From: Jiella mangrovi
GTDB taxonomy: Bacteria; Pseudomonadota; Alphaproteobacteria; Rhizobiales; Rhizobiaceae
Assembly (NCBI RefSeq): GCF_017815135.1
Contig: NZ_JAGJCF010000014.1
Coordinates: 1-64,000 of the forward strand
Direction of reading: 5' to 3'
DNA length: 64,000 nt
Positions 9,802-13,634 of the stretch are shown here, one piece after another. The notes beneath the pieces are model-generated. The model saw nothing but the letters and a program-made list of their open reading frames with translations. It ran no database searches and was not told where the DNA came from. The translations under genes and the position numbers were made by a program. Each line of letters begins with the position of its first letter. Within the stretch, counting starts at the first letter, position 1.

Positions 9802-10779
9802 TCAGCGTCCGCTTTCGATATCGGCGACGAGCTTTTCGCGCAAAGCATCGGAAACACTCGGCCGCTGGCCGAACCAGCGCTCGAAGCCGGGCACCGCCTG
9901 ATGCAGAAGCATGCCGAGGCCGTCGGCAAAGGCGAGCCCGCGCGCCTCGGCCGCTTTCAGGAGAGGCGTCATCAGCGGCGAATAGACGATGTCGGTGACG
10001 AGCGCGTGGTCGGGAAGAGCGCCGAGGTCGGGCAGCCTTTCAGGGAACCAGTCGGGGGTCTCGTCATCGGCGTCCCTTTCGGGGATCGGCGCGGTGTTGA
10101 CGAGGAGATCGGCGCGGGCAAGGAGCGCCGCTCTCGCCTCCTCGCCATGGCCGAAGATGCGCCCGGCAAACTGCGTCTCGAACCGCGCGGCGAGCTCTTC
10201 CGCCCGCGACGGGGTCCGGTTGACGATCTCCACCCGTTTCACGCCTCTCGACAACAAAGCGTGGACGACCGCGCGGGCAGCACCCCCAGCCCCGAGGACG
10301 ACCGCCGTCTCGGCTTCTGTCCAGCCCTTGAGCCGCTCATCGAGATTGGCCGCGAACCCATAGGCATCCGTGTTGCCACCGACGAGGCTCTGCCCCTCGA
10401 ACCACAGCGTGTTGACGGCGCCGATCGCCTCGGCGTCGCCGTCCCGCCGCTCGACGGCGCGAAAGGCCGCGACCTTGTGGGGAATGGTCACATTGCCGCC
10501 GACGTAACCCTGTTCGCCGAGCGTTGCGAAAAACGCGTCGATCTCTTCGGGCGGAACACCCATGCGGCCATAGGAGCCGGGAAGGCCGAGCTCCTTCAGC
10601 CAGGTGCCGTGGATGAGGGGCGAGCGTGAATGCCAGACCGGCCAGCCGGTGATGAAGGCGCGTTGCCCTTCCCTCTCCGCCGGCCGGCTGGCGGGATCGA
10701 AGATCGAGCCCTCGCCGCGCGGGCGGTCGGCGCCGCTCACATAAGGAGACGGCGTCCAGTCATCGTCCCTTTCAGCCAT
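9802..10779 (-). CDS. aroE: Shikimate dehydrogenase with N-terminal extension
   Basis: A 325-residue enzyme that reduces 3-dehydroshikimate with NADPH in aromatic amino-acid synthesis. Catalytic Lys and Asp are K102 (NVTIPHK) and D138 (GGNTDAYG); the dinucleotide-binding loop GAGGAA is at 163-168. The N-terminus carries about 38 extra polar residues compared with usual AroE (about 275). The ATG at 10779 overlaps the end of maf by eight bases and has GGAG five bases upstream, so the extension is probably real; no later start has a better site. The usual NTT motif after the Rossmann fold reads NTAPIP. Confidence 0.92.
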
Positions 10780-11371
10780 CGATCTCCCCCCTTGCCCGCA
10801 ATTCCTTCAAGAGCGGCAGGATGGGCAATCCGATGATCGTGGTGAAATCACCGTCGATCGCCTCCATCAGCTGCACGCCCTCCCGTTCGATCTGATAGGC
10901 GCCGACACTCGTCAGGGCTCTCGCGCCGACCGAGGCGAGGTAGCGCCCGATGAAGCCGGGATCGAGTTCACGCATGGTCAGTCTCGCGACGGCGACATGC
11001 TGCCAGGTCACGACGCCGTTCTCGACGAGGACGACCGCACTGTTGAGTGTATGGGTCCTGCCGGACAAGGCGAGCAGCGTGCGCCGCGCTTCCTCCATCG
11101 TCGGCGGCTTGTGAAAGACGCGATCGCCGAGCGCCAGCGTCTGGTCGGCGCCGATCACGATCTCGCCGGGATGGTTCTGCGAAACATCGGTCGCCTTCGC
11201 CTCGGCCAGAACGGCGGCGACATCCTCCGGCGTCGCGCCGCTATCAAGAAGCGGCGCCTCGATCGCCCGCTCGTCGAGCTCGGACGGTCGCACGGTGAAA
11301 TCGACACCGGCATTCTTCAAAAGCTCGCGGCGATGGACGCTGCCGGATGCGAGCACGATACCTTTGGGCAT
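10772..11371 (-). CDS. maf: Maf family nucleotide pyrophosphatase
   Basis: A 199-residue Maf/Ham1-type house-cleaning nucleoside triphosphate pyrophosphatase, which removes modified nucleotides. Family signatures are [12 protein letters not shown] at residues 8-19, VIGADQTL and the C-terminal [10 protein letters not shown]. The ATG at 11371 follows AAAGG by nine bases. It is the first gene of the leftward operon with aroE, the NTF2-like gene and coaE, and its promoter region merges with the origin-like intergenic region next to hemE. Confidence 0.92.
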
Positions 11372-11910
11372 GGATCGGTACCTTTTTAGTGAAATCTTCA
11401 CGATTCGGGATGCTTGATAGCCCCGTGACAGGGAAGACCCAAGGGGCGGGATTCGATTCTCCTTCCCGTGGCAAGCCAAAGCTTACGGAACGCACGGGAT
11501 TCTCGGCGGCCTGTGGGAAGCCTGGTGTAAACCGATGGGTTTGCCGGCAGGGCTTTGTGTCCCTGTTCATCAAACCGTCACCTGTCCACAATCTCTCATC
11601 GATTTCGCCTTGTGAGCGGCGCCAGGCGAATCTGTGGCAAAGCCCCGTCAAGCCATCTTGCGAAATCAACGACCGGTCGACATCGGCGCCGGCCAAGCCA
11701 TGATCGGCAAGCCCTTTTGATCATTTGCCGAATCCCGCGCCTCCCCGAACTTCACACCGCCCGGTGAAAGAGCGTTTCCCCGCCCTTGCGTCAAAGCCGT
11801 CGATGATCGGTCAAAATTGGCGCTCGGTGTGAATCCCGGCTATCCACCGACTCTAAGAATCATCAAATCTCTTTAAGATGGATTCTTTTAAGATTGGGAG
11901 ATCGCTGCCT
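11372..11910. other. Candidate chromosomal replication origin (oriC) between maf and hemE
   Basis: This 539-base non-coding region separates divergent maf and hemE. It holds ten GANTC sites (CcrM methylation; about two expected by chance), at 11402, 11450, 11455, 11498, 11628, 11730, 11831, 11849, 11858 and 11881. It also holds DnaA-box-like 9-mers: CTGTCCACA 11582-11590, TTTGCCACA on the minus strand 11633-11641, GGATTCACA minus 11828-11836 and CTATCCACC 11840-11848, each about 7 of 9 to consensus. An AT-rich tail at 11849-11895 has the direct repeat TTTAAGAT at 11872-11879 and 11887-11894, a possible unwinding element. The origin beside hemE is established in Caulobacter and reported in S. 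meliloti. Identity is inferred. Confidence 0.6.
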
Positions 11911-12930
11911 ATGGAAGAGAAAAAGCTCCTGAGGGTGCTCGCCGGGGAAACGGTCTATCCCCCTCCGGTCTGGCTGATGCGCCAGGCGGGGCGTTATCTT
12001 CCAGAATATCGCGAGACCCGGGCAAAGGCCGGCGGCTTTCTCGATCTTTGCTACGATCCCGATTTTGCCACCGAGGTAACTCTGCAGCCGATCCGTCGCT
12101 TCGGCTTCGATGCGGCGATCCTGTTCTCCGACATTCTCGTGATCCCCGATGCTCTCGATCGCGGGCTCCATTTCGTCACCGGCGAGGGACCGAAACTGAC
12201 GCCGATCCGCGAAGACGAGATCGCAGGCCTCGACCCAAGCCGGGGTGAAACTCATCTGGCGCCCGTAATCGCGACGGTCGCGAGGCTGCGGGACGAGCTG
12301 CCCGCCGAAACGACGCTGATCGGCTTTTGCGGTGCGCCCTGGACGGTCGCCACCTACATGATCGCCGGCCACGGCACGCCCGACCAGGCGCCGGCGCGGC
12401 TGTTCGGCTATCGCCATCCCGAGGCGATGGAAAAGCTTCTGTACCTCCTCGCCGAGATGAGCGCCGACTACCTGATCCGCCAGCTGACGGCCGGAGCGGA
12501 CTGCGTCCAGATCTTCGATTCCTGGGCCGGTGTCCTCGATGAGGCGAGCTTCGAGGCCTATGCGATCGGGCCGGTGCGCCGGATGGTCGAAAAGGTGCGG
12601 GCCGCAAAGCCCGACGCCAAGATCATCGGTTTTGCCAAGGGTGCCGGGGCATTTCTGTCGACCTACCGGGAAAAGACCGGCATCGACGCGGTCGGACTTG
12701 ACTGGCAGGTGCCGATGGATTTCGCCAAGGGTCTCCAGGCAAAGGGCGCCGTCCAGGGCAATCTCGATCCTTTGCGCCTGATCGCCGGCGGAAGGGCCCT
12801 GGAAGAGGGCGTCGACCGGATCCTCGAAAATCTCGGGCAAGGCCCGCTGATCTTCAATCTCGGCCACGGCATCACCCCCGACGCGCCGATCGCCCATGTC
12901 GAGGCGCTGTTGAAGCGGGTGCGGGCATAA
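11911..12930 (+). CDS. hemE: Uroporphyrinogen decarboxylase
   Basis: A 339-residue cytosolic enzyme that decarboxylates uroporphyrinogen III to coproporphyrinogen III in haem synthesis. The N-terminal signature [14 protein letters not shown] (residues 21-34) with its substrate-binding arginines and the second signature [13 protein letters not shown] are intact. ATG 11911 is chosen because GGGAG lies 10 bases upstream; the in-frame ATG at 11878 would add 11 residues and overlap the AT-rich segment. It is transcribed away from the candidate origin and is followed by hemJ. Confidence 0.95.
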
Positions 12931-13130: not shown

Positions 13131-13634
13131 ATGAAAAACGCGCTGATCGCCCTTGCCATCACTGTTCTTGCCGCGTTGCTGATGTTTCTCGTCTTGCCCG
13201 ATGCGGCGTATCTGTGGGTGAAGTCGGTGCATGTCTTCGCGGTCATCGCCTGGATGGCCGGGATGCTCTATCTGCCGCGGCTTTTCGTCTATCACGCCGA
13301 TGCCGAAATCGGCTCGGTCCAGTCGCAGACCTTCAAGGTGATGGAACGCCGGCTTCTCAAGGGGATCATGAACCCTTCGATGATCGCCACCTGGGTCGCG
13401 GGCATATGGCTCGCCGTTTCGGGGGGATGGCTCGCCAGCGGCGACGTCTGGATCCAGCTCAAGATCCTGCTCGTTCTCGCCATGTCCGCCATCCACGGCA
13501 TGCTTTCGGCGGCGACCCGCCGCTTTGCCGAGGACCGCAACGAGAGATCGGCGCGCAGCTGGCGCATGCTCAACGAGGTGCCGGCAGTCTTGTTGATCGG
13601 GATCATCATTCTGGTGGTGGTAAAGCCGTTTTAA
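13131..13634 (+). CDS. hemJ: Protoporphyrinogen oxidase HemJ (membrane)
   Basis: A 167-residue inner-membrane protein with four predicted helices, matching the HemJ family that oxidises protoporphyrinogen IX in bacteria lacking HemY or HemG. The segment VKSVHVFAVIAWMAGMLYLP carries the conserved His and the WMAG motif; a Lys/Arg-rich loop (KVMERRLLKGIM) follows. ATG 13131 has AAGG five bases before it; an in-frame TTG at 13116 is possible. Two haem steps, hemE and hemJ, are 200 bases apart and codirectional. Confidence 0.9.
   Translation: MKNALIALAITVLAALLMFLVLPDAAYLWVKSVHVFAVIAWMAGMLYLPRLFVYHADAEIGSVQSQTFKVMERRLLKGIMNPSMIATWVAGIWLAVSGGWLASGDVWIQLKILLVLAMSAIHGMLSAATRRFAEDRNERSARSWRMLNEVPAVLLIGIIILVVVKPF

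Follow-up and report, generated by a model that had tools for sequence, protein, structure and literature searches.

The non-coding segment at 11372-11910, between the divergent genes maf and hemE, is very probably the replication origin (oriC), judging by comparison with related genomes. The analysed stretch of 64,000 nucleotides (hereafter the window) is the start of contig C4 (G000:C4:1-64000) of a draft genome of 4.93 Mb in 41 contigs. Taken as a whole, the evidence is best explained, and we hold this with high confidence, if the gap is the oriC of Jiella-like Rhizobiaceae, which DnaA would open via a short conserved module beside hemE; the explanation rests on conservation, uniqueness, position, instability, the strand polarity of relatives and the persistence of the module without hemE. 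The features of the locus are as follows, with conservation counted in a genus alignment of ten genomes that includes the window's own.

10772..11371, minus strand: maf (PF02545), a profile match
11372..11910, no strand: candidate oriC, non-coding, between divergent maf and hemE
11402..11406, no strand: GANTC, in 1 of 10 genus members (the window's genome alone)
11450..11459, no strand: two abutting GANTC sites, GATTCGATTC, each GANTC in 10 of 10 genus members
11498..11502, no strand: GANTC, in 9 of 10 genus members
11582..11590, plus strand: DnaA-box-like CTGTCCACA, a perfect TTATCCACA in 5 of 10 genus members, though the window's genome is not one of these
11628..11632, no strand: GANTC, in 9 of 10 genus members
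11633..11641, minus strand: DnaA-box-like TTTGCCACA, its TGTGGC kept in 9 of 10 genus members
11730..11734, no strand: GANTC, in 4 of 10 genus members
11830-11865, plus strand: conserved module, adjoining the least stable 50 bp of the window
11830..11849, plus strand: left half of the module, with DnaA-box-like CTATCCACC, recognisable in 15 of 28 alphaproteobacteria outside Rhizobiaceae
11831..11835, no strand: GANTC in the module, in 9 of 10 genus members
11840..11848, plus strand: DnaA-box-like CTATCCACC with 2 mismatches, inside the module
11846..11862, plus strand: 17-mer core ACMGASTCWWAGAAHHA (here ACCGACTCTAAGAATCA), single copy in 92 of 121 Rhizobiaceae genomes
11849..11853, no strand: first GANTC in the 17-mer, in 10 of 10 genus members and 78 of 78 named module-bearing loci
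11850..11865, plus strand: right half of the module, private to Rhizobiaceae, with the CcrM sites 11849-11853 and 11857-11861
11852..11901, no strand: candidate DNA unwinding element, the least stable 50 bp of the window
11857..11861, no strand: second GANTC in the 17-mer, in 10 of 10 genus members and 29 of 78 named module-bearing loci
11881..11885, no strand: GANTC in the unstable segment, in 10 of 10 genus members
11911..12930, plus strand: hemE (PF01208), a profile match
13131..13634, plus strand: hemJ-like UPF0093 membrane protein, a profile match

The genes on both sides are transcribed outward, as had been read from the sequence alone: maf on the minus strand from 11371 and hemE on the plus strand from 11911, the start used in our alignments (an in-frame ATG lies upstream at 11878). 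The UPF0093 protein at 13131..13634 is one which we take to be HemJ, and the closest named match of hemE is in Jiella endophytica (93% identity). Two of the marks of the hemE-side class of alphaproteobacterial origins, an intergenic gap beside hemE and an easily opened AT-rich segment, are present. The other flank here is maf, since ppsR (PF03618, Kinase-PPPase) is absent from the window's genome in a profile search of the whole genome; PF03618 is kept in 92 of 121 Rhizobiaceae genomes and missing from this one and 28 others. In 13 of 30 loci, the window's included, maf directly adjoins hemE with gaps of 422-614 bp, and these 13 loci belong to genomes without any PF03618 match. The gap had been expected to be shorter than where ppsR intervenes; it is longer, at 539 bp between hemE and maf vs. 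432-449 bp between hemE and ppsR in nine genomes. Two further observations concern hemE itself: G033 has another hemE-like gene (C1:2011934-2012968), diverged to 47% identity and remote from the origin, and a contig recorded under Bacillus subtilis strain SK6B4 (L254) looks mislabelled or contaminated, since its hemE is of rhizobial type and the family module is there in exact form.

The ten GANTC sites that the sequence-only reading counted in 11372-11910 are all there and form the densest cluster in the window. GANTC is strongly avoided in the window: the whole 64 kb holds 87 sites, whereas dinucleotide shuffles predict ~405. With the site density seen outside the gap, its 539 bases would hold 0.65 sites (Poisson P = 2e-9 for ten), whilst dinucleotide shuffles of the gap give an expectation of 3.4, with 1 of 1000 reaching ten; the earlier figure of about two by chance matches neither value and falls between them. 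The next densest 539 bases hold five sites in the window and seven in the 416 kb of C4 and C38 together, clusters elsewhere reaching at most five per 539 bases on C4 and up to seven on C38. Across 138 Rhizobiaceae loci, the 540 bases upstream of hemE contain 0-13 GANTC sites (median 5), and 540 bases inside hemE contain a median of one and a maximum of three in the named loci; in G037 the gap holds five, with an equal cluster at 570 kb. Eight of the ten sites in our gap are kept in at least nine of ten genus members, and the conserved sites are spread across 430 bp, three of them in or at the module.

Four DnaA-box-like 9-mers had been proposed; three were found at ≤2 mismatches (11582, 11633 and 11840), and because 59 of 1000 shuffles of the gap reach three, the boxes alone are weak evidence for an origin and their count was dropped as proof of one. 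These sites are, however, conserved in the genus. The AT-rich tail is real, as 11852-11901 ranks as the least stable 50 bp among 63,950 window positions, and it starts inside the 17-mer. The direct repeat TTTAAGAT noted in this tail is indeed present, at 11872 and 11887, but the pair is kept in none of the nine other genus members; control by CtrA through these repeats was considered and rejected, the two TTAA being 11 bases apart, not 7, and the repeat being unconserved. The motif search for CtrA sites that had been proposed found no TTAA-N6..8-TTAA pair in the gap, and WATCAANNNNTTR has no match there either, these being the forms that we take for the CtrA pair and the IHF consensus.

Alignment of the gap across relatives exhibits one long conserved block, the module beside hemE. 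A 36-column matrix of the module scores 49.1 at 11830 and -15.2 at its next best position in the window, and the family logo (126 distinct sequences from 138 loci) reads approximately TTAATCCYYGMTAYYCACMGACTCTAAGAAWYAGAA, then AT-rich, then T-rich DNA; the last base of the box CTATCCACC is base 3 of the 17-mer. We searched for the 17-mer as a pattern in 121 genomes of Rhizobiaceae in the broad, GTDB-style sense, where a reversed-pattern control matched in five. In 91 of the 92 genomes with the exact 17-mer it lies 45-174 bp upstream of the hemE match on the same strand, the exception being G080. The exact form is missing in 25 hemE-bearing genomes, with a clear variant in G022 and G088. Twenty further genomes without it were read, a sample that left out G110 and G114: in 17 of these a copy matching 14-16 of 17 positions lies 50-107 bp upstream of hemE, where the next best match in the same stretch reaches 11-13, whilst no such copy lies upstream of hemE in G006, G039 and G044. 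With the 36-column matrix a degenerate copy was found in G039 (13.7), at most a relic in G093 (2.4) and no module in G006 or G044. G006, G044 and G093 are reduced genomes (1.1-1.5 Mb) in which the module is degenerate or gone and hemE is present. Within the genus the 17-mer is exact in eight of ten members and one base off in G508 and G512. Of 80 named loci, 70 carry the exact form and eight a form with one mismatch, matching loci including Rhizobium, Ensifer, Agrobacterium, Mesorhizobium, Brucella and Aureimonas species, and two (L206 and L265) have no match. Outside Rhizobiaceae the exact 17-mer occurs in 4 of 384 genomes, none with hemE within 1.5 kb, and these matches are therefore treated as chance.

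An element that precedes hemE on its coding strand, with little variation in spacing, could instead be the promoter of a hemE-hemJ operon, kept for transcription, with the origin elsewhere or merely overlapping it. The hemE promoter overlaps the Caulobacter origin, and in G080 the module still precedes hemJ, where it is possibly a hemJ promoter. In that genome hemE has moved to another contig, and the relocated copy (L029) has no module. The series maf-ppsR-module-hemJ-rho-mnmE has stayed intact, its last three genes being identified by eye, and five GANTC sites lie no more than 20 bp from the module. A second genome, G091 (100% complete), has no hemE match genome-wide and no ORF of at least 130 aa between rho and ppsR, and there is no hemJ at the locus, yet the module is kept between rho and ppsR, ~400 bp from rho, at a matrix score of 26.9 with the next best in 15 kb at -3.5. 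Since it is kept both where hemE has moved and where hemE is absent, the module follows the ppsR/maf locus rather than hemE and is not simply the hemE promoter; with its single copy per genome and its position against the least stable DNA, this makes a role kept for transcription very unlikely. The GANTC cluster, in turn, might mark a promoter region regulated by CcrM/GcrA and be no feature of an origin. A CcrM-like methyltransferase (P0001, a PF01555 match, named CcrM by resemblance) is encoded in the window's genome, and PMC8116508 describes alphaproteobacterial intergenic regions as generally GANTC-enriched. We regard this as unlikely, as other clusters on C4 and C38 stop at five and seven sites per 539 bases, the conserved sites extend over 430 bp with three in or at the module, and the evidence for an origin holds independently of GANTC. 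With both a CcrM gene and GANTC sites present, the region is a predicted target of CcrM methylation. Relatives of CcrM occur in 120 of 121 Rhizobiaceae genomes, and loss of CcrM was discarded as the cause of modules that lack the first internal GANTC, because all four genomes with such modules (G026, G034, G065 and G076) have a CcrM relative. These four genomes, together with A. tumefaciens, where ori1 foci were not significantly altered by changed CcrM levels according to PMC11514494, lead us not to favour direct gating of the origin by methylation.

In several relatives strand polarity switches close to the gap, at less than 1 kb from it in G020 and G022. In the same genus, the skew minimum of G020 is at 76.0 kb and its gap starts at 76.8 kb, on a contig which ends 9 kb beyond, whilst in G508 (a 5.58-Mb contig, 400 kb read) the minimum is 16 kb from the gap and the orientation of GGGCAGGG switches between 2.136 and 2.220 Mb, except for one plus site at 2.134. 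The cumulative skew minimum of G022 is at 3.002 Mb (2.8-3.2 Mb read), with hemE at 3.0004-3.0014 Mb and the opposite switch of its 3.7-Mb contig near 1.2 Mb (20 samples; mixed signs at 1.9-2.85 Mb). Elsewhere the minimum is 10 kb from the gap in G037 (192 kb read, with a second dip almost as deep at 630 kb), 56 kb from the gap in G042 and 22 kb from the module in G080. All 12 relatives searched for parS besides G080 have a site no further than 72 kb from hemE, and in G080 one lies 5.7 kb from the module; G023 has an additional parS on another contig. This polarity switch near the gap in relatives, together with the once-per-genome module, supports the earlier proposal that the segment is oriC. 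The own draft genome departs from the pattern: a GC-skew minimum far from the gap had been named as grounds for rejecting the proposal, and here the GC-skew and KOPS switch does lie elsewhere, on C38 at ~200-215 kb.

On C38 the skew minimum is at 215 kb, and GGGCAGGG occurs 11 times on the minus and twice on the plus strand below 200 kb, and 15 times on the plus and never on the minus strand above 206 kb; on C4 each of the 15 copies of GGGCAGGG is on the plus strand, GGGNAGGG, a looser form, is found 20 times plus and three times minus, and the skew minimum is at 29 kb. The parS sites of this genome are on C38 and C40. A rival reading for this strain is that replication starts on C38, near 200-207 kb and next to parS, and that the hemE gap was once an origin but is now inactive; in its favour, KOPS and skew switch at C38:200-215 kb, where two parS sites also lie. 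However, the single module copy of the genome sits at the hemE gap, GANTC clusters on C38 contain only up to seven sites, and C38 at 203.7 kb looks like a rearrangement junction, because the blocks to either side (C38:189.9-203.6 and 203.8-249.6) are separate and differently oriented in G508. Relative to G508, C4:0-13.6 kb is an intact origin block, and C38:203.6-189.9 (reversed), which follows hemE in G508, is located elsewhere in the window's genome. We consider an origin on C38 highly improbable, and the switch in the own draft is probably due to a recent rearrangement; a recent move of the origin block by ~80 kb would explain it if, as we infer, the right end of C38 precedes the left end of C4, although no overlap between these contig ends was found. 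As a separate observation, G000:C38:203.6-203.8 kb against G508:C1:2.171-2.213 Mb looks like a rearrangement junction beside parS, and the genera of this clade differ greatly in how the genes near the origin are ordered.

Returning to the gap as oriC, the module is apparently the site of first strand opening. The BUS rule, as given in PMC8287927, asks for a DnaA box and at least three NAN trinucleotides within 16 bp. The box CTATCCACC is within the ≤2 mismatches of the rule, having two, but the window's module does not have three or more NAN trios within 16 bp; among Rhizobiaceae, three NAN trios counted from the box end occur in 11 of 134 modules, and several AT-rich modules read CTAATAATAA. 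A strict BUS scan over 300 bp was abandoned as a discriminator, as at least three trios occurred in 9 of 28 regions outside the family vs. 13% of shuffles and in 49 of 138 Rhizobiaceae regions vs. 15%, just modestly above shuffles in both. The outgroup consisted of hemE upstream regions from 28 genomes hand-picked among the 384 others in the class sample. The full 36-column matrix gives at most 8.9 in these 28 regions, below the minimum of 19.2 among the training sequences. Scored with the left 20 columns alone, 15 of the 28 lie above the 95% shuffle quantile on the hemE strand, vs. four of 28 on the opposite strand; the 13 that stay below include every one of the four same-order genomes (G190, G309, G403 and G481). 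One of these, G403, has GTCTAAAAGAAAAAACAGAGTCCTAGAATC upstream of hemE (L279, same order, other family), which recalls a duplicated right half without the left half. In the 15 matching genomes the 34 bases after the left half contain 8% G vs. 25% in the background (two are G-rich), and their identity at a lag of three bases is 0.448 vs. 0.319 (sd 0.024) in shuffled tracts, with 0 of 2000 shuffles reaching 0.448. The same identity in 93 distinct Rhizobiaceae tracts, which are related to one another and were chosen by the 17-mer, is 0.322 vs. 0.293 (sd 0.010), much weaker but not nil.

The outgroup tract appears G-poor and 3-base-periodic, like DnaA-trios. From the left-column matches in 15 of 28 genomes and the contrast in lag-3 identity, the left half appears common to many, not all, other alphaproteobacteria, and the periodic tract seems largely missing in Rhizobiaceae; we infer that the tract was once there and has been replaced, the same-order genomes being of no help in dating this. 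It is possible, and we suggest it only tentatively, that Rhizobiaceae have a non-standard unwinding site in which the DnaA-box half was kept and the DnaA-trio tract exchanged for a fixed, non-repeating sequence with a CcrM site in it. DnaA would then recognise single strands in a different way in this family, or the right half would be read by some other protein; that the shared left half is in none of the four same-order outgroups counts against this reading. Titles and abstract openings in the literature (figures, supplements and subscription papers being outside the reach of the search) held no description of the family module or its missing trio tract, and none of the text matches to GACTCTAAGAA was about origins, judged by title.

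In the proposed mechanism DnaA would bind the weak boxes across the gap; the box at 11840-11848 would be its loading point for the neighbouring module, and AT-rich 11852-11901 beside hemE would be opened. Rhizobiaceae would keep the DnaA-box half of the unwinding module, with a fixed sequence that holds one or two CcrM sites in place of the 3-base-periodic tract. That DnaA binds here, that the strands unwind and replication initiates, which way the exchange went and whether methylation matters are our interpretation of the sequence patterns. The 17-mer, found once per genome, allows simple placement of oriC in Rhizobium-Brucella-Aurantimonas drafts, even where GC skew misleads, as here, and if the right half truly replaces DnaA-trios, comparing the versions would test the universality of the trios and the role of a methylation site at the opening point.

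The gap resembles the Cori of Caulobacter crescentus, which has GANTC sites, in lying beside hemE with an AT-rich segment and DnaA-box-like sites. It differs in its other flank, which is maf here and COG1806 (DUF299, PF03618/ppsR) in Cori: PMC1914354 places the Caulobacter origin between hemE and COG1806/DUF299, predicts a hemE-side origin beyond Caulobacter and describes the flanks of such origins as variable, so the missing COG1806/DUF299 flank is not decisive. Unlike Cori, the gap is also without a TTAA-N6..8-TTAA CtrA pair and without a match to the IHF consensus used; the S. meliloti origin is likewise without CtrA sites. The chromosomal origin of Sinorhizobium meliloti is hemE-adjacent, and the 17-mer is present in exact form in Sinorhizobium sp. 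8-89 (L262) and Ensifer sp. Root278 (L210). For comparison with Agrobacterium tumefaciens ori1, Agrobacterium rubi (L217) has the 17-mer with one internal GANTC. The placement of alphaproteobacterial origins by Ori-Finder and parAB is discussed in PMC8116508. As in the BUS of Bacillus subtilis, predicted across bacteria including Proteobacteria in PMC8287927, a DnaA box is followed by a short spacer and then an unwinding site (a candidate here); unlike the BUS, the window's module is without the required NAN trios, and the outgroup tract is periodic. The hemE-side origin is already known, and the Rhizobiaceae-specific right half looks like a new variant of it.
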